From positions 23,922 through 87,921 of IMG/VR virus record IMGVR_UViG_3300008469_000001: a DNA stretch of 64,000 nt; one strand, 5' to 3'. This document shows positions 12,877 to 26,867 of this stretch, one piece after another (within the stretch, counting starts at the first letter, position 1; each line of letters begins with the position of its first letter). A program made the position numbers and the translations under genes. Origin of the DNA: a virus. The notes under the pieces are model-generated. The model was not told the DNA's origin, did not search any database, and saw only the letters and a list, made by a program, of their open reading frames with translations.

Positions 12877-13587
12877 ATGAAAATTAATAAAATTATAGCT
12901 GTTGAGGGTCTTGATAAAACTGGAAAATCAACTTTTTGTGATAAATTTGATGTTATTTTCTCAAGTATGCAGGGTATAAACTCTCAAGAACTAATGAGAT
13001 ACTCTTTTCCTAATGTTGAATCACCAATTGGTAAAAGAATAAGAGATGAGTTAAATTCATCATCACCAAATTTAGATATTGTAAATACACCAAATTTCTT
13101 ATCTGAAATGAGTCATTTTTGGATGGAAGAATTATTCAATAATACTAAATCAATTAAAGATAATGCAAACAGTAAAGAACATCATATTGTTAATACAAAT
13201 ATTATATTCAATAAAAATTATATTTTTGATAGATATTTTATTTCTACATTAGCATATCAAGCATTTCTTAATAATAGTAGAACAGACTTAGAATTTATAA
13301 AAACAGCTTTAAGAAATAATTCTTTTCTTAAATTACCAACTGATATTATTCTATTAGATATACCAAATGATATTATAATTGAAAGAACATTAGCTGATCA
13401 TGCTTCAGGTTCAAATGACCACAATGATACAATTGATGTGGATTTAATCAATAAAAGAAGAGATGCTTTTGTACAAGCTGTTAAATTCTTTGAAGGTTCT
13501 GGGGTTAATGTTCATTGGTTTGAAGATGTTAGTAAATACACAACAGATGATTTAGTTAAAATTTTAATGGGGAAAATATTTGGTTAA
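12877..13587 (+). CDS. tmk: Thymidylate kinase (dTMP kinase)
   Basis: 236 residues, cytoplasmic nucleotide kinase that converts dTMP to dTDP with ATP. The P-loop is EGLDKTGKST (residues 10-19), typical of TMP kinases. FDRYFISTLAYQAF (about 113-126) is the DR(Y/W) thymidine-binding motif, and LPTDIILLDIPNDIIIER begins the strand that leads to the lid, with the lid region near residues 170-180. Length is close to bacterial enzymes (about 210). It is the only rightward gene between two leftward blocks and ends 12 bp from a convergent gene, so it has the look of an inserted cassette. Starts at ATG with a GAGG site. Confidence 0.88.
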   Translation: MKINKIIAVEGLDKTGKSTFCDKFDVIFSSMQGINSQELMRYSFPNVESPIGKRIRDELNSSSPNLDIVNTPNFLSEMSHFWMEELFNNTKSIKDNANSKEHHIVNTNIIFNKNYIFDRYFISTLAYQAFLNNSRTDLEFIKTALRNNSFLKLPTDIILLDIPNDIIIERTLADHASGSNDHNDTIDVDLINKRRDAFVQAVKFFEGSGVNVHWFEDVSKYTTDDLVKILMGKIFG

Positions 13588-19402: not shown

Positions 19403-20044
19403 TTAGTTATTTTTTAAAAAATCAATCAAAAGTACATATGCATATCCTATAGAATGCGGTTTTTTATATCTATATTTACCATCATCTCTACCCAATTCCT
19501 TAAATTGTTCATCAAAAACTGGTATACCATAAGTTTCTCTTAGAATTTTTTGAGCTTCTTCTGATTTCTTTTTCAATAGTTTATCAGTATGAATATAATT
19601 TTTCATCTTATCATAATTAGCTACGGAACCAGGTCTAATCAACGCTAAAATAATAGCAATGTCATTTACAGATGAAACTTTAAACTCTCTAAGAATACCA
19701 GGATACTTACTCAATTGATATGGTTCATCATATTCCCACAATGTTGACCATTGGATATTTTCATTTTCTATCAGGTGTATATATTGTATTAATTCATCTG
19801 AGGATATATCATCCAAATAACTATTATTAAGAATATCAATCTTTTGAAAATGATTTTTTTCCATTGATTTATAATCTATAACAGCTAAATCTTGATAAGC
19901 TGGAATTGATTTATAAAAATAAACGCCAGCTGGATGAGGTTGATAATCTCCTCTATCATTCAAAACAGAAGCCCTTAACAAACCATTTCTAATTTCATCT
20001 GAGTCCTTTGCAGGTATATCCAAATCTAAATCTGAAAATTTCAT
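19403..20044 (-). CDS. Very small DNA polymerase III alpha (C-family)-like protein
   Basis: 213 residues, compared with about 1160 in bacterial DnaE. Landmarks of the C-family catalytic core appear in the right order: SDLDLDI at 4-10 (PDFDVDF in E. coli, with the two metal aspartates at D5 and D7), HPAGVYF near 37, IDYKSMEKNHFQKIDIL at 56-72 with D70 at the third catalytic aspartate, NDIAIILALIRPGS (the conserved RPGP loop), TYGIPVFDEQF (YGVIVYQEQVM) and KKPHSIGYAYVLL (NKSHSAAYAL). The PHP domain, most of the palm, clamp-binding and OB parts are missing. It sits directly after gp46/gp47. Polymerase activity is doubtful; homology is well supported. Confidence 0.72.
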   Translation of the reverse strand: MKFSDLDLDIPAKDSDEIRNGLLRASVLNDRGDYQPHPAGVYFYKSIPAYQDLAVIDYKSMEKNHFQKIDILNNSYLDDISSDELIQYIHLIENENIQWSTLWEYDEPYQLSKYPGILREFKVSSVNDIAIILALIRPGSVANYDKMKNYIHTDKLLKKKSEEAQKILRETYGIPVFDEQFKELGRDDGKYRYKKPHSIGYAYVLLIDFLKNN

Positions 20045-20091: not shown

Positions 20092-21939
20092 TCAATCTAA
20101 GTCCGGATTCACATCTAAAGTTGAAATCCCCCTAGATTTTGTAACTAAAATAACTTCTTTTGATTTTTCTTTTATCTCTTCTCTGTGAGAAATCATATAT
20201 ACTCTCATCTTTTCTTGTTTTGCAACATTTTTGATAAAGTAATATACAGATTCTAATAATGTACCATTGATACCACTATCCAAAACTTCATCCATAAACA
20301 GTGCATTAAATTCAACATTATTTTTTAGTTTAAACACTTTCATAAGTGCCAACATAATCATAATATTACCAATCCTTTTTTCACCATTTGAAAGAGTACC
20401 TGATGATACCTCTTTACCAAGCTTCATAATTCTTATTGTGAAATCTGGATTGAATTGTAAATGAATGTTAAAATCAGGAATCAATTTTTTAAAGTTTTTG
20501 AGTATTTCATTTGATTGTTTGATAAATTTTCTTAGAAATTTTCCTCTTATTTTTTGATCATCATTCTGTTTTATAAATGATTTAAACAACCTAACATTCT
20601 CTGAAACCCTATCAATCTCAGTCATATCTATGTTTCTAATTAACTTTGAATTAGCTTCTATTTCTGATAAGAAATGGTTGTCTTGACCTTCAATATTTGT
20701 TAATTCATTTTCTAGATTTTTAACAACAATATCAATATTATCAAGTTCTTTCTTATCAACTTTTGTTTCAACTTCTTCCATTGCTTCTTTTATTTCAGAT
20801 AATAATTCTCTTTTATCAGAAATGGAATGTTTAAGTTGTTTTTTACCTTTATCATGATCGGTAATACTTTTTTCATATATAAGAATTTGTTTTCCATAAT
20901 CAGATAATTTTTTATCACTTTCTGTTATAGCTGTTGCATCTTCCCAATCTTGATTACAAGTAGGACAAATATTACCCTTTAAACTAACATTCTTCTTTTC
21001 TTCTCTTTCATATTTCTCAGATAGAATTTCTATTTCTCTATCTTCTTTATCAATAATGGATTGTACATCTTTTAAATCACTTCTTAATTCAGTAATTGTT
21101 TCTGTCAATTTCAATTTATGTTCTTTCAACTCATCTAAAAATGAAAATTTATCAAGTTCTTCTGCAACATTAACTGTGGTGTAATATTCAATAGATTCAA
21201 CTAAACTATCGATTTGTTTTTTTCTTCTTCTCTCAAATTTTTCTGACGATTCATTTAATCTTTCTAACTGGTGGGTTATTTGTTCATTTGCATAATTAAT
21301 TTCTTTTATACTTGATTCTAATTCTGTTAATTTTATTGTATCATCTCTTACTCTATCTTTAACATCTGTAGCCATTTGATTAGCAGCTTCAAAACTAAAT
21401 ATGTTTTCAAGAACTTTCTTTTGATCACCCGGTCTCATATTCAAAAATGGTTTATTATGCTCACTTGCAACTGAGAATAAAGTAGTTTGTAGGAAGGTTT
21501 CATATTTCATTCCAACAATAGATTCAATAAGATTATTGTTATCTCTTATGTCTGCTTTTGAGATATTGTCCCAAGTATCTTCTACATTTTCAACTGTTTC
21601 AACTTTTTTATAAAGATTAAGAATGTTTGGTTTTCTTCCTCTTTCAACTTTAAAACTGTGTTTATCAATATCAAATTCTAAAGTAACTACACAGTCTTTT
21701 CCTTTTATATAATTAACAACCTCATTAGCTTTAACATTTGATACAGTTTCACCATATAGTGCAAAAGTTATACCAGCAAATATAGTTGATTTACCTGTTC
21801 CAATTTTAGCACCTTCAGTATCTTTATCAATTCCATCAATAAGTATTACTGTAGAACCAAACTCATTAAATTTCAGTTCTTGTTTACTTCCATAACTATA
21901 AAAGTTTTGCAATTCTAATTTTCTAAATTTAACTTTCAT
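20092..21939 (-). CDS. 46: Recombination endonuclease subunit gp46 (Rad50/SbcC-like)
   Basis: 615 residues; ATPase partner of gp47 that resects DNA ends for recombination-dependent replication. Walker A is KIGTGKST (K50), preceded by a slightly expanded loop. Long coiled coils at about 175-300 and 340-450 flank a zinc hook CPTC (325-328). The ABC signature LSNGEKR lies near 515 and Walker B/D-loop LFMDEVLDSG near 550. Length is close to T4 gp46 (560). Gene order 47-46 matches T4. No late promoter motif precedes the pair, which fits early or middle expression. Confidence 0.93.
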   Translation of the reverse strand: MKVKFRKLELQNFYSYGSKQELKFNEFGSTVILIDGIDKDTEGAKIGTGKSTIFAGITFALYGETVSNVKANEVVNYIKGKDCVVTLEFDIDKHSFKVERGRKPNILNLYKKVETVENVEDTWDNISKADIRDNNNLIESIVGMKYETFLQTTLFSVASEHNKPFLNMRPGDQKKVLENIFSFEAANQMATDVKDRVRDDTIKLTELESSIKEINYANEQITHQLERLNESSEKFERRRKKQIDSLVESIEYYTTVNVAEELDKFSFLDELKEHKLKLTETITELRSDLKDVQSIIDKEDREIEILSEKYEREEKKNVSLKGNICPTCNQDWEDATAITESDKKLSDYGKQILIYEKSITDHDKGKKQLKHSISDKRELLSEIKEAMEEVETKVDKKELDNIDIVVKNLENELTNIEGQDNHFLSEIEANSKLIRNIDMTEIDRVSENVRLFKSFIKQNDDQKIRGKFLRKFIKQSNEILKNFKKLIPDFNIHLQFNPDFTIRIMKLGKEVSSGTLSNGEKRIGNIMIMLALMKVFKLKNNVEFNALFMDEVLDSGINGTLLESVYYFIKNVAKQEKMRVYMISHREEIKEKSKEVILVTKSRGISTLDVNPDLD

Positions 21940-22038: not shown

Positions 22039-23097
22039 CTACTCTTGGTAAGAGTTAGATAATTCCTTTAAAAATTTTATTGCTTCTTGGTCTTCATCAA
22101 CTTTTTCGGTTGTTACTAAATTATCAATAACATAATCTGTATATGATTGATTTTCTAATTTATTAGATGTTTCTTCATCATCTTCATCATCAAGATCATC
22201 TAAATCATCCCAAGGTGACATTTGATCATCAAGAACTAAATCATTTATTCCATATTCTAAAATCAATGATGTTTTAAATTCTTCCAATTCACTATATTTG
22301 TATTTCTTATCAATAACTAATTTAAGATTATCTCCTTGATTAAATACTGTAGTTAATTCATCTTCCATCTCTTTCAATACTGACATTTTGAATTTATACA
22401 TTCTAGGGTGTTGGTACTCAATAAATTCATCTTCACCATTTTCACAATCTAATATAGTCCATCCTCTCTCATCATCATCTTCACCATAAAAAAATCTACA
22501 CAAATTTCCAATATATGCTATTTTACCTCTTGATTGTCTTTTATGAAAATGTCCCATAAACACTTTATCATAATTTTTTGTAATTGCATTTGCATTAAGA
22601 CCTTCTTCAGCTTTAACAAATTGGTTTAGCATAAAACCTTGTATTTCAATGTGACCCATTAAAAAGTTTGCATGTGGGAATTCATGTCCTTTCATTATTT
22701 CATTTGGAAAATAAGGTAACATATAAAATGTATTATCATGAATTTCTAGTGTTTTAGGTTCATCTACCAAATGAATATTTGGATAACCAGCAAATATATG
22801 TAGGTTATGTCCATTTGAATCATATGTTTTTTTTGACATGTCATGATTACCAACCAATATATATACATTATCAAATGTATCATTAATTTTAATAAATGCT
22901 TGTGCTAGATAATTTAAGGTTGAAGTGGATATTGATTGTTTTACATCAAGTGTATCACCTAAATTGATCATTGTAGTTATACCATTTTGTTTCGCATGTT
23001 CACATTGTTCATAAATACCTTTAAGTATAATATGGTCAAATTTACCATTTGATTTACCAAAGTGCCAATCGGTACTAATTGTAATTTTCTTATTCAT
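22039..23097 (-). CDS. 47: Recombination endonuclease subunit gp47 (Mre11/SbcD-like)
   Basis: 352 residues (T4 gp47: 339). All five metallophosphoesterase motifs are present: DWHFG (D10, H12), NLGDTLD (D48), LVGNHD (N84, H85), GHIEIQG near 150 and GHFHKR near 183. The C-terminal 70 residues are acidic, including a run WDDLDDLDDEDDEE. With gp46 it forms the exonuclease/endonuclease complex for end resection. It is the first gene of the leftward replication block, beginning at the edge of the origin-like region; an AAAGG site precedes the ATG. Confidence 0.94.
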   Translation of the reverse strand: MNKKITISTDWHFGKSNGKFDHIILKGIYEQCEHAKQNGITTMINLGDTLDVKQSISTSTLNYLAQAFIKINDTFDNVYILVGNHDMSKKTYDSNGHNLHIFAGYPNIHLVDEPKTLEIHDNTFYMLPYFPNEIMKGHEFPHANFLMGHIEIQGFMLNQFVKAEEGLNANAITKNYDKVFMGHFHKRQSRGKIAYIGNLCRFFYGEDDDERGWTILDCENGEDEFIEYQHPRMYKFKMSVLKEMEDELTTVFNQGDNLKLVIDKKYKYSELEEFKTSLILEYGINDLVLDDQMSPWDDLDDLDDEDDEETSNKLENQSYTDYVIDNLVTTEKVDEDQEAIKFLKELSNSYQE

Positions 23098-23135
23098 TCA
23101 TAATTGCCTTTCATCAAGAATATATATTGATATAT

Positions 23136-23141
23136 ATTATA
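23136..23141 (-). promoter_or_regulatory. Candidate -10 element TATAAT for gp47
   Basis: Minus strand TTTGTATAATAT, about 40 nt before the gp47 start. The same TTGTATAAT string occurs at 12837 (+), 24011 (+) and, on the minus strand, near 885 and 32382, always upstream of genes or in gaps. No good -35 was found. Confidence 0.35.
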
Positions 23142-23299
23142 CAAAATTTAATCAGTAATAATTTCATAGAAAATCATATACAATTTGACATTAATATAAT
23201 GGTGTAATTTTATCATAAATTCTTGTGTGAAAATCAAACATAATTATGACCTAAATTATAAGTGTATTTCAAATCAATTTTTTTAAAAAATAAATTCAA

Positions 23300-23337
23300 T
23301 GGCTATGCCAGAGGACGAAGTCCAAGGTACGAAGTAC
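23300..23337. repeat. Three consecutive triloop mini-hairpins
   Basis: TGGC-TAT-GCCA (23300-23310), GGAC-GAA-GTCC (23313-23323) and GTAC-GAA-GTAC (23327-23337). Each has a 4-bp stem and a 3-nt loop, and two have the GAA triloop known to make exceptionally stable DNA mini-hairpins. The stretch is clearly GC-richer than its surroundings. Confidence 0.6.
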
Positions 23338-23477
23338 TATATCTATCTTTATATCATATTTAGGCACTTATAGCGGACAATTCACTAGGCAATAATAAGG
23401 GGGTTTATAGCGACACCCCAAAAAAATCGTGTAAGCTTTGTGGAATTGTCGTGTAAACTTTGTGAAAGCATTTTTTC

Positions 23478-23493
23478 ACCTTATTATTAAGGT
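23478..23493. repeat. Imperfect palindrome ACCTTATTATTAAGGT
   Basis: Close variant of the perfect palindrome at 23927, followed by CTTAAAA. It lies between the first two iteron copies and the TAACTCAAAA block. Confidence 0.5.
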
Positions 23494-23521
23494 CTTAAAA
23501 TGCGAAAAAAAAGGCATGTTT

Positions 23522-23820
23522 TAACTCAAAAAATTTTTCTGATGTTTTTAGGGTACTAAATAACTCAAAATTTGAAGTTGATTAATTTTAAGTTTTTTTT
23601 AAGGTGATGTTTTAACTCAAAATTTGAACTTGATGAATTTTCTAAAAACAGTAGTGTATATAGTAGTTCGAGCAGTCTTATCGTGTAAGTCTTGTGGAGT
23701 TAAATCGTGATTGTAACCAAAAGTTTCTCTATTTGTAAATAACTCAAAATTTGAACTTGATGAATTTTCAAAAATAACTCAAAATTTGAACTTGATGTAT
23801 GAGGGTTTTTTAACTCAAAA
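23522..23820 (+). repeat. Repeat family B (TAACTCAAAA, six direct copies)
   Basis: Exact TAACTCAAAA at 23522, 23561, 23613, 23740, 23775 and 23811, plus one inverted copy at 24074-24083. Four copies continue into TTTGAACTTGATGAATTTT or close variants (23561-23589, 23613-23641, 23740-23768, 23775-23799). The unit differs from family A, so two proteins, or two domains of one protein, may bind here. Confidence 0.85.
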
Positions 23821-23852
23821 ATAAAAGTTGAGTTATTTAGACCTATTTTTCT

Positions 23853-23860
23853 TATAAATA
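23853..23860 (+). promoter_or_regulatory. Exact late promoter motif TATAAATA inside the origin-like region
   Basis: Plus strand, 18 nt before the iteron at 23878 and 276 nt before the Rep start. It could drive a late transcript through the origin or arise by chance in AT-rich DNA. Confidence 0.35.
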
Positions 23861-23926
23861 ACTTAGAAATTAAAAAATCGTGTAAGTCTTGTGGAGTTTA
23901 AAATTTATTTAGTAAAGTCTTAAAAC

Positions 23927-23942
23927 ACCTTATTAATAAGGT
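23927..23942. repeat. Perfect 16-bp palindrome ACCTTATTAATAAGGT
   Basis: Followed by ATTAAA. Its right half plus flank (AAGGTATTAAA) recurs at 24124-24134, directly at the ribosome-binding site of the Rep gene, which hints at an operator. Confidence 0.6.
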
Positions 23943-24013
23943 ATTAAATAAAATCACCATTTGATAAATGTTAAAAAATCGTGTAAGTCTTGTGGAGTTT
24001 AAAATCGTGATTG

Positions 24014-24019
24014 TATAAT
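24014..24019 (+). promoter_or_regulatory. Candidate -10 element of the rep promoter (TATAAT)
   Basis: Lies 15 bp after the last iteron; the spacing would put a weak -35 (TTGTGG) inside that iteron. Binding of the initiator to the iteron would then block its own promoter. Confidence 0.45.
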
Positions 24020-24135
24020 AGGGTATACACGATAATTTGATAAGATTTCCAATGTAAATAACTCAACTTTTATTTTTGAGTTATTTTCTAAATCTATAGA
24101 ATTATAAAAAAAACTTATAAAAAAGGTATTAAAAA

Positions 24136-25467
24136 ATGACAGTAAAAACAACAAAAAAATCACTCCAAAAATCGGCTGGTTTGAACCTAGAATTGAAGAA
24201 ACCATCTCAACTTTGTCAAGTACTATTTTATAAAGATTTCAACAAGGAAGAATATGCAAATCTTACACCATTACAAATTGATATTATCAATGTAACCTTT
24301 AGATTTGTTTCTGATATTATGGAAAAACAAGACTTAACTAGAGAAGAATTATTTGAATGGGCTAACTTAAATCACTTTGAAATAAATTTACAATCGATTT
24401 CTGATGTTCTTGGTAGATATAAGAATGGATATTATGAACCAATAGTACATAATTTACAGGAATTAACTAAAATTCAGGTTTTAACAAATACTCTACACAA
24501 GAATAAAACACAAGAATCAATTTTATTTCACTTTATTAGAAAGATAAGTTGGTTAAAAGACAAACAAACAACCAGTAAAAGAGTTAAAGTTTGGATTGAA
24601 CCAGAACTTTTATCAATGTTTTTAAATCTCAAAGACTATTACAGTAAAATGTATTTACCTATTCAATTAGGTCTTAAGTCCAAATATTCTAAACTATTAT
24701 ATGAAATTCTTAAAGATTATTCTAAATTAAAAGAGATAACTTTAGATTTTGATATGTTGAAAGCATTACTTAATGTTGATGTAAAAGAGAAACCTAGTTT
24801 AGATGCTTGGTCTAATTTTAATAGAGATGTATTAAAAAAAGCTGTTAAAGAAGTTTCTGAAAAATCAGATATTAAAATTGAGTATACTCCAATAAAAGAA
24901 AAATTAGATAAAAAAAGTGAAGTAACTAAAATTAAATTTACTATGAGGAAACAAAGATCTATATTAATTGATGAAGATGATATTGATGAAATGTCATTAG
25001 ATACACATATTGTTTCTGATGATGATGTTAGAACAAAAGAGTTATCAGCTGAAGATATTAAATATATTGAATTAGCACAACAAAGGTTAGATGATGCTAA
25101 AGTATTTGGAACTCAGATAAAAAATGAACAAGCTTATTTAGAAACCATAATTGAAAATCTTAAAAAAGAGAAAAAAGATATTCCAAATATGCTTCTTATA
25201 GATGATATTATCTTAGAATTAAGAGAAGCTTTTGAAGAATTTAAAAATAATAATAACCAACTTATTGTTTTAGAAAATATTGATTCGTATCCAGTTGTTT
25301 CTATTAGTAGTGAGTATTTACTATATTCACCAGTAGATAAATCTAATATTACGAAAAGTGTTGAAGAAACAATAAATAAGATAAATAAATTCAAAACAGA
25401 AGATGGGAAATTTAATATTATTGAGACTCCAGCAAAAATAAAGGAGCTTGATATTTCTTATCTTTAA
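24136..25467 (+). CDS. Plasmid-type replication initiator (Rep_3/RepB family)
   Basis: 443 residues. The winged-helix pair typical of iteron-plasmid initiators (RepE, pi, RepA of pPS10) is visible: WH1 at about 30-165, and WH2 from about 172 with LPIQLGLKSKYSKLLYEILK, then LDFDMLKALLNV, WSNFNRDVLKKAVKEVSE and DIKIEYTPIKE, closing with TKIKFTMRKQ near 275. This order is the Rep_3 signature, where the second domain contacts the iterons. Residues 280-443 are an acidic helical extension beyond the usual 230-300 residues. It should bind the repeats just upstream and start theta replication or regulate its own promoter. Start is ATG 24136 after AAGG; no late promoter is close by. Confidence 0.8.
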   Translation: MTVKTTKKSLQKSAGLNLELKKPSQLCQVLFYKDFNKEEYANLTPLQIDIINVTFRFVSDIMEKQDLTREELFEWANLNHFEINLQSISDVLGRYKNGYYEPIVHNLQELTKIQVLTNTLHKNKTQESILFHFIRKISWLKDKQTTSKRVKVWIEPELLSMFLNLKDYYSKMYLPIQLGLKSKYSKLLYEILKDYSKLKEITLDFDMLKALLNVDVKEKPSLDAWSNFNRDVLKKAVKEVSEKSDIKIEYTPIKEKLDKKSEVTKIKFTMRKQRSILIDEDDIDEMSLDTHIVSDDDVRTKELSAEDIKYIELAQQRLDDAKVFGTQIKNEQAYLETIIENLKKEKKDIPNMLLIDDIILELREAFEEFKNNNNQLIVLENIDSYPVVSISSEYLLYSPVDKSNITKSVEETINKINKFKTEDGKFNIIETPAKIKELDISYL

Positions 25468-25488
25468 TATATAATATGGAGCGCAGAT

Positions 25489-26460
25489 ATGGGAAACAAT
25501 ATGAATGAAACGCAGATTGTAACTGATATAGAACAGAATACAATCTTGAATATAGACCCAAGTATTATTAGTGAAAACAAAATGGCTATTAATCTATTTG
25601 GTGAAGATTTATCTGAGATGGCACCAGCTATTAATGAAAATTTCATTAGATTGATACAAAATTTTTATGGTGAATCTTCACCGCTTAATCCATTAATTGG
25701 TCAACAATGGTTAAATAAAGAAGATAATATTTTGTATAGATGGATTGGTAACAATTGGGTTCAAACAGAAAGAGATAACACATTTGATTCATTTATGTTT
25801 GTTATGTATAACATTGGTGATACTAGTGAATTTGTTTTAGATGAATTTGTATTTAACTTTACTATTGAAAATATCAAATTATATAATCAAGATATGAATG
25901 ATGTTAAATTTGTTATTGACCCATTTGATTCTAGAAAGATAATTTTAAAAGAATCAAATATAACTACATTATATATAATGGTATTTCATCCAGAAGATAG
26001 AATTACAAATCCTTTTAAAAACAGAAAAGTTGAAATTTTTACAGAATCCGGACAAACCCAATTCGATATTGAATCATTTTTATTAGGTTCAGATATTAAT
26101 ACTCTGAGTGTTTCATTAAATGATGTAATGTTAAAAAATAATGAATTTACTGTAACTAATAATATATTAAGTATAAATGGTATGATTTATAGAGTTAGGG
26201 AAAATGATAAATTAACAATTTGGAAACATGGTGGAAGTTTGTCTTCATATTATTCAACATTTACTACAACTGTTAATTCTAGAGAAAGTTATGTTAGAAT
26301 ACCAAAGTTTTTCAAAAATATTATGACTATGGAAATTTTAGATTTAGATACAAATACTATTATTAATCCTATTGAAGTTAATGAATTTGATGACTATTAT
26401 CACTTTGAGTTTTTAGATAAGAAAAATATTAAGATTAATTCTAAAATAAGAATTATATAA
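25489..26460 (+). CDS. Virion structural protein with LWYN-type N-terminal module (baseplate/fibre candidate)
   Basis: 323 residues; GGAG site 9 nt upstream. Residues 30-75 (AINENFIRLIQNFYG, NPLIGQQWLNKEDNILYRWIG) match the short NP..GQ.W.....LY.W.G module seen in many fibre and baseplate proteins of marine T4-type phages. The remainder is beta-rich without a recognised family. It is followed by two genes with the same or related N-terminal module, so the three probably form one substructure. Co-transcribed with the Rep gene unless an unseen promoter exists. Confidence 0.6.
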   Translation: MGNNMNETQIVTDIEQNTILNIDPSIISENKMAINLFGEDLSEMAPAINENFIRLIQNFYGESSPLNPLIGQQWLNKEDNILYRWIGNNWVQTERDNTFDSFMFVMYNIGDTSEFVLDEFVFNFTIENIKLYNQDMNDVKFVIDPFDSRKIILKESNITTLYIMVFHPEDRITNPFKNRKVEIFTESGQTQFDIESFLLGSDINTLSVSLNDVMLKNNEFTVTNNILSINGMIYRVRENDKLTIWKHGGSLSSYYSTFTTTVNSRESYVRIPKFFKNIMTMEILDLDTNTIINPIEVNEFDDYYHFEFLDKKNIKINSKIRII

Positions 26461-26471
26461 GGAGAGTTAAA

Positions 26472-26867
26472 ATGGTATATCCTTTTGTAGCTAATAAAGT
26501 TGAACAATTAGAATTAGACCCAATAAAAAAAGTAGATGGGTATATATGGTATAATACAGTTGAAAAAGTTTATAAAACATGGGTTGGAAATACAATTCAA
26601 ATTTTCATTACAGACTTTAGTTTTGGTCAAAATGTTGATGAGATGGTGCAGGATAAACTTGATACTAAACAATTTACTGTTGGATTTGATTCTGTATATA
26701 GTTTGATTATAAAACATAATAAAAATTCACATTTCTTTAATTACACTATTTTTGACACTATTGATAATGTTCAAATAAATTCATCAGTAGAAATTATTAA
26801 TGATAATGAAGTTAAAGTTGACTTTACAGATCCAGTAACTGGTCATATTTTTATGTATTTCCAATAA
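26472..26867 (+). CDS. Small virion structural protein, module paralogue
   Basis: 131 residues; AAGGAGAG site. Residues 12-45 (ELDPIKKVDGYIWYNTVEKVYKTW) repeat the W(Y/F)N...Y..W module of the neighbours. Residues 75-131 resemble the strand domain that often follows in fibres: an IKHNKNSHFFNYTIFD strand pair, then NSSVEIINDNEVKVDF and a final GHIFMYF. The same kind of C-terminal domain closes the next gene. Probably a fibre-base or baseplate accessory subunit. Confidence 0.6.
   Translation: MVYPFVANKVEQLELDPIKKVDGYIWYNTVEKVYKTWVGNTIQIFITDFSFGQNVDEMVQDKLDTKQFTVGFDSVYSLIIKHNKNSHFFNYTIFDTIDNVQINSSVEIINDNEVKVDFTDPVTGHIFMYFQ

Follow-up and report, generated by a model that had tools for sequence, protein, structure and literature searches.

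How huge phages start replication is largely an open question. About 30% of them show a bidirectional GC skew, according to a huge-phage study in which a word search turned up no replication initiator (PMC7162821); in a survey of 224 jumbo-phage genomes, word searches likewise brought up neither origins nor Rep initiators as a topic (PMC7824862). None of the papers searched covered both Rep_3 and jumbo phage. The locus described here lies in a stretch of 64,000 nucleotides (the window) that spans bases 23,922–87,921 of an 87,921-bp IMG/VR virus record. An initial annotation, made from the letters alone, had read it as a plasmid-type iteron origin with a Rep_3 initiator inside a T4-type phage, perhaps an acquired replicon used for early theta replication or for persistence as a plasmid-like element. 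Does a T4-type phage start its replication from such a module? We consider it likely that the locus serves a huge T4-type phage as a working origin of replication, with the build of an iteron plasmid replicon; its use as an origin is supported by protein family, predicted fold, comparative and strand-bias evidence.

The source phage and its relatives

The window carries the hallmarks of a T4-type phage, as had been claimed, namely gp23, a tail sheath, gp46/gp47 and a gp55-type sigma factor. The scale needs correction: the T4 gp23-like capsid gene has its best cultured matches, at about 33%, in jumbo phages (e.g., GAP32, 121Q, PA5oct), and the window is one part of a huge T4-type phage genome, not of a classical 170-kb T4-like one. 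To the left of the locus, on the minus strand, lie a gp47-like (SbcD) nuclease subunit (22039–23097; phrog_100, 8.9e-59; T4 gp47, 6e-32), which opens the divergent leftward block, and a gp46-like (SbcC) recombination ATPase (20092–21939; phrog_77, 3.7e-83; T4 gp46, 9e-21). Adjoining gp46 is a 213-aa DNA polymerase III alpha finger-domain protein (19403–20044, minus strand) that is conserved in relatives and agrees with the split, minimal form of Pol III alpha reported for jumbo subgroup 2.2 (PMC7824862). Farther left, a deoxynucleoside/thymidylate-kinase-like ORF, recognized by eye, occupies the opposite strand within the leftward structural block (12877–13587, plus strand).

Relatives were found by scanning IMG/VR viral contigs with the capsid protein (MCP) and with Rep alignments. 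A first viral scan with a single Rep protein gave no match; by tblastn the window Rep likewise had no counterpart in 50,697 phage records, and among plasmids it had weak matches only, at most 36% identical. The capsid and alignment scans yielded eight rep loci beyond that of the window, nine in all, on contigs of 289,880 bp (G006), 172,404 bp (G002), 306,333 bp (G004), 224,467 bp (G014), 121,946 bp (G012), 18,831 bp (G011) and 12,222 bp (G013); ORFs throughout are greedy predictions. G006 and G014 come from one sample, have only 9 reciprocal best hits between them, and each is collinear with its own part of G004 (105 and 39 hits, respectively); they are probably one genome of about 514 kb with two rep genes. 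G004, which on its own carries two rep genes, and G012 also share a sample and are complementary in like manner, and they are probably one genome of at least 428 kb with three rep genes. At least one contig end each of G000, G006, G002 and G004 falls in a short tandem coding repeat (e.g., GGACCATCA, AAGAAGAACC), and such ends are probable assembly breaks, not genome ends. The early region of G006 has Pfam matches to an anti-Pycsar (Apyc1)-like nuclease, an NAD-dependent DNA ligase, a topoisomerase, DnaJ and a class II tRNA synthetase. A scan of genome contigs returned distant fragments only and gave no clue to the host.

The Rep protein

The rep gene (24136–25467, plus strand) encodes 443 amino acids, and its product matches Pfam Rep3_N (PF01051, the WH1 domain; 6.4e-9, 36.8 bits against a curated cut-off of 22.4) and Rep3_C (PF21205, WH2; 4.2e-11, 43.4 bits against 21.1). 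A sequence search of the PDB matched R6K pi at 1.1e-5, with RepE also among the matches. The absence of a Rep_3 hit had been named in advance as grounds for abandoning the assignment; the hit is clear, and both domains are present in all nine related Reps, that of the window included. An AlphaFold2 model built from nine relatives has a mean pLDDT of 62, rising to 70–90 in the core, which is moderate confidence. Compared with the PDB by Foldseek, the modelled core returned 47 matches at E<1e-3, solely RepE54 or RctB entries, with a best target TM of about 0.75. From these profiles and this model, the product is a predicted two-winged-helix Rep_3 initiator, with WH1 at about residues 40–193 and WH2 at about 205–269. 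The C-terminal extension that follows, about 170 residues, is poorly predicted and has no recognized fold.

The gene also heads a block of rightward-pointing virion structural genes (24136–26867), with 21 bp between it and the next one. Leading a structural block is an odd position for an early initiator, and both early and late promoters may read rep.

Organization of the origin region

Between the starts of gp47 and rep lie 1,038 bp of non-coding DNA (23098–24135) in which neither a conserved ORF nor an Rfam match was found; a reading of the region as an RNA element was set aside for the lack of an Rfam match. Three relatives have a syntenic non-coding region, and GC content across these regions is 19–25%, region-wide. 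The repeats, the palindromes and the inverted repeats around the promoter that the initial annotation had described are all there. Five iterons stand on the plus strand: a distal pair (TCGTGTAAGCTTTGTGGAA at 23427–23445 and TCGTGTAAACTTTGTGAAA at 23449–23467, the second 22 bp after the first), a copy of TCGTGTAAGTCTTGTGGAG at 23681–23699 that is found in the window and is missing from the aligned relatives, and a proximal pair of the same sequence, conserved in position, at 23878–23896 and 23979–23997, the last of them immediately upstream of TATAAT. The distal and proximal groups are about 400 bp apart. The iteron 16-mer occurs five times with at most two mismatches, whereas none of 100 dinucleotide shuffles had more than 2 copies, and elsewhere in the 88-kb contig the sequence has solely chance matches with five mismatches.

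A second family of direct repeats with the core TAACTCAAAA spans 23522–23833 on the plus strand, in copies at 23522, 23561, 23613, 23740, 23775 and 23811, and the core occurs once more, inverted, at 24074. The element is conserved in the aligned relatives, and its copies fall within the candidate AT-rich unwinding region between the iteron groups, where they may have a part in unwinding. A perfect 29-nt inverted repeat has its arms at 23811–23839 (plus) and 24055–24083 (minus), with 215 nt between them; G006 has an analogous perfect pair of 25 nt. A perfect palindrome, ACCTTATTAATAAGGT, lies at 23927–23942, and a copy of its core with one mismatch is found at 23479–23492. Palindromes of the TATTAATAAGG type or partial copies of them, followed by T-rich runs, occur both at 23927–23942 and in the upstream regions of the rep loci L035, L036 and L042, and so stand ahead of several rep genes that are not otherwise related.

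The putative operator and promoter of rep (24004–24033) consist of a half-iteron ATCGTGAT (24004–24011), the TATAAT (24014–24019) and an inverted half-iteron TACACGAT (24026–24033; p=0.02 for the inverted 8-mer). Opposed half-iterons around a TATAAT are the layout expected of an autoregulated rep promoter, and we assign the element that putative role; a promoter scan of the region gave no more sites than in shuffles. The canonical DnaA boxes TTATCCACA and TTATNCACA do not occur in the origin region; DnaA is optional for some iteron plasmids (PMC4980987).

Conservation of the module across rep loci

The search of other genomes for the gene together with its repeats, recommended at the outset, gave eight further rep loci, each with its own iteron array. 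Three to five direct repeats stand upstream of rep in 9/9 loci, a number never reached in 100 shuffles of each; the iteron sequences differ between loci, and those tested are confined, genome-wide, to their own rep locus. Four of the loci (the window, G006, G002 and G011) are syntenic beside gp46/gp47, and the Reps of the other three are 61% identical to that of the window. Within this group the iteron sequences differ from those of the window, but the GTG-N8-GTG half-sites are invariant alignment columns, the 22-bp spacing of the distal pair recurs in all four, and the order of the distal and proximal groups is kept. At the non-syntenic loci the Reps are 31–34% identical over the full alignment and the iterons are unrelated in sequence. 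Inverted partial iterons at the rep promoter or start reach p<0.05 in six of the nine loci and 0.066 in L034; the inverted half-iteron is not significant in L042 and absent in L038. In L035 (G004, 185.8 kb) an exact inverted iteron of 17 bp overlaps the rep start. Because the four loci are stably syntenic, with Reps about 60% identical to that of the window, we regard the module as an old component of the genome, not a recent acquisition.

Strand bias at the rep locus

Gene orientation diverges at the origin region, as the initial annotation had it, and in the window GC skew flips there as well. The raw GC skew minimum falls inside the rep upstream region in G006 (120,105) and G002 (134,045), and close by in the window contig. 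GC skew, however, also follows gene direction. The predicted skew extremum is thus present, but in the 88-kb window contig alone the effects of replication and transcription on strand bias are not separable, and larger relatives were needed. We therefore fitted fourfold-degenerate sites gene by gene, with one term for transcription and another for replication, allowing one switch. In G006, genes co-directional with forks leaving the rep site have a coding-strand GC skew of +0.22 to +0.26, against about -0.08 for head-on genes. The best single switch in the combined fit lies at 119–127 kb, where the origin region occupies 119,406–120,157 (block-permutation p=0.0002); the TA skew alone peaks at about 138–146 kb. 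In G002 the best single switch lies at 133–136 kb, with the origin region at 133,477–134,261 (block-permutation p=0.0002). These two genomes, however, are about 94% identical and together amount to little more than a single case.

A natural contrast comes from G004, in which the module has moved. At its gp47 site there is a gap of 194 bp with no rep, and the raw skew minimum is still there, at the divergent promoter; for this reason we dropped raw cumulative skew as proof of an origin. The rep gene lies 24 kb away, with its upstream region at 67,845–68,606. The combined GC and TA fit places the switch at 60–70 kb, which includes the rep site (score 144.7, tied best), while the old gp47 site scores 124.4, 20 units lower. 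TA alone switches exactly at the rep site; GC alone points to 60–65 kb and third codon positions to 50–59 kb, neither exactly at 68 kb. The corrected fit thus prefers the relocated rep site to the divergent promoter, which makes the rep module the better account of the strand bias. The extra rep copies (G004, 185.6 kb; G014, 203.8 kb; G012, 63.7 kb) are not at strand-bias switches, and they may be conditional, recent or inactive. Taken together, these fits support the rep locus as a working bidirectional origin, and probably the main early one.

A proposed course of initiation

The scheme that follows builds on the protein family, the iterons, their locus-specificity, their conserved layout and the coincidence with a transcription-independent switch that follows the moved module; its conjectural steps are the binding of Rep, the melting of the DNA, the loading of a helicase, the repression of rep by its own product and the change from early to late replication. 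Rep would bind the 19-bp iterons, whose GTG-N8-GTG half-sites lie one helical turn apart and whose distal pair is two turns apart, and by analogy with iteron plasmids it would bind them as monomers (PMC4980987). By the same analogy it would melt the A+T-rich stretch between the distal and proximal groups and load a replicative helicase, either a phage gp41-type DnaB or that of the host. A gp41-type helicase (DnaB_C) is encoded on G014, which puts a phage helicase at hand, probably within the genome that G006 belongs to; for this reason we abandoned the idea that the phage has no replicative helicase and depends on host DnaB. An early, theta-like round would follow, its two forks moving apart from the origin, and Rep would repress its own promoter through the inverted half-iterons. 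Later replication would presumably be handed over to recombination, and the adjacent gp46/gp47 relatives fit such a switch.

Alternative explanations

Rep_3 initiators with iterons are typical plasmid replicons, and P1 carries one, which raises the possibility that the phage persists as a low-copy plasmid whose Rep_3 replicon serves that state while lytic replication starts elsewhere. Persistence of this kind, one of the two uses offered initially, would lead one to look for partition and integration genes. Searches for a ParA-type ATPase (AAA_31) and a tyrosine integrase (Phage_integrase) found neither in about 1 Mb of related contigs (G000, G006, G014, G002, G004 and G012), records that may be incomplete, whereas P1, the positive control, gave both. 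Plasmid-like persistence is accordingly the less likely use; the strand-bias switch suggests, moreover, that the site shapes ordinary genome replication, and we judge a phage-plasmid quite improbable. We give as little credence to an accessory module, be it a regulator, a weapon of plasmid incompatibility or a satellite replicon residing in the genome, with a skew switch that stems from divergent transcription. It would account for extra rep copies at differing positions without skew switches and for the raw minimum in G004 at a promoter without rep; yet the switch at rep persists in G006 and G002 once transcription is corrected for, G004 fits the relocated rep over the divergent site, position and iteron layout are kept in four syntenic loci, and the neighbourhood of rep showed no further plasmid or satellite genes.

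More weight, though still on the doubtful side, belongs to a rep origin that is one of several unranked, parallel origins, like oriA, C, E, F and G of T4, with transcription-primed origins doing most of the work. T4 has at least five origins, oriE with iterons and several where transcription diverges (PMC3016281), and the phages studied here carry more than one rep module. Against this, much of the bias left after correction is accounted for by one switch, and the other rep sites are not at switches.

Comparison with known systems

Like the iteron plasmids (F RepE, R6K pi, pPS10, P1 RepA), the locus combines a WH1–WH2 initiator with direct-repeat iterons just upstream of its gene, a candidate A+T-rich unwinding stretch and, at the putative rep promoter, inverted half-iterons. 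It differs from them in its setting, a huge T4-type phage genome, in the longer protein with its C-terminal extension and in the roughly 400 bp between iteron groups; canonical DnaA boxes and partition genes were not found. The two winged helices are shared, as the sole structural match outside RepE, with domains 2–3 of RctB of Vibrio chromosome 2, also a Rep-like initiator of a large replicon, though there of a cellular chromosome with a different repeat system. Among phages, lambda O/ori and SPP1 gp38 likewise pair an initiator with iterons and pass from an early theta phase to another replication mode, in temperate or smaller phages and with initiator families unrelated to Rep_3.

T4 oriE, with repEA/repEB, also has direct repeats at a point of transcription divergence and skew shift in a T4-type genome, but these are 12-nt repeats of undefined role (PMC3016281) and T4 has no detectable Rep_3 initiator: a Rep3_N search found nothing in T4, KVP40, phage G, GAP32, 121Q, PA5oct, XaC1 or Phosso, and was positive in P1 (RepA). 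The ICP1 satellite PLE, by EMSA and genetics, replicates during myophage infection from a plasmid-family initiator and iterons, so that such an initiator can work in a myophage-infected cell; PLE is, however, a satellite and not a phage chromosome, and its initiator is RepA_N, not Rep_3 (PMC7145576).

Implications for huge phages

The replicon is of a familiar kind; its setting is new, and a genome holds several such modules. Whether huge T4-type phages have, more broadly, swapped the transcription-primed origins of T4 for a main bidirectional Rep_3 origin, with two or three modules of differing specificity per genome and a working origin that can be moved and exchanged between lineages, is to our mind evenly poised. 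For a question as open as huge-phage initiation, the locus supplies a concrete protein–DNA pair that predicts the origin, a prediction from the rep/iteron pair that held in related genomes. T4-type phages thereby gain a defined initiator, testable by binding assay or read depth. The findings also suggest that origins may be exchangeable cassettes in phage genomes, as they are in plasmids, and that rep modules sharing a genome could escape incompatibility by having different iterons.
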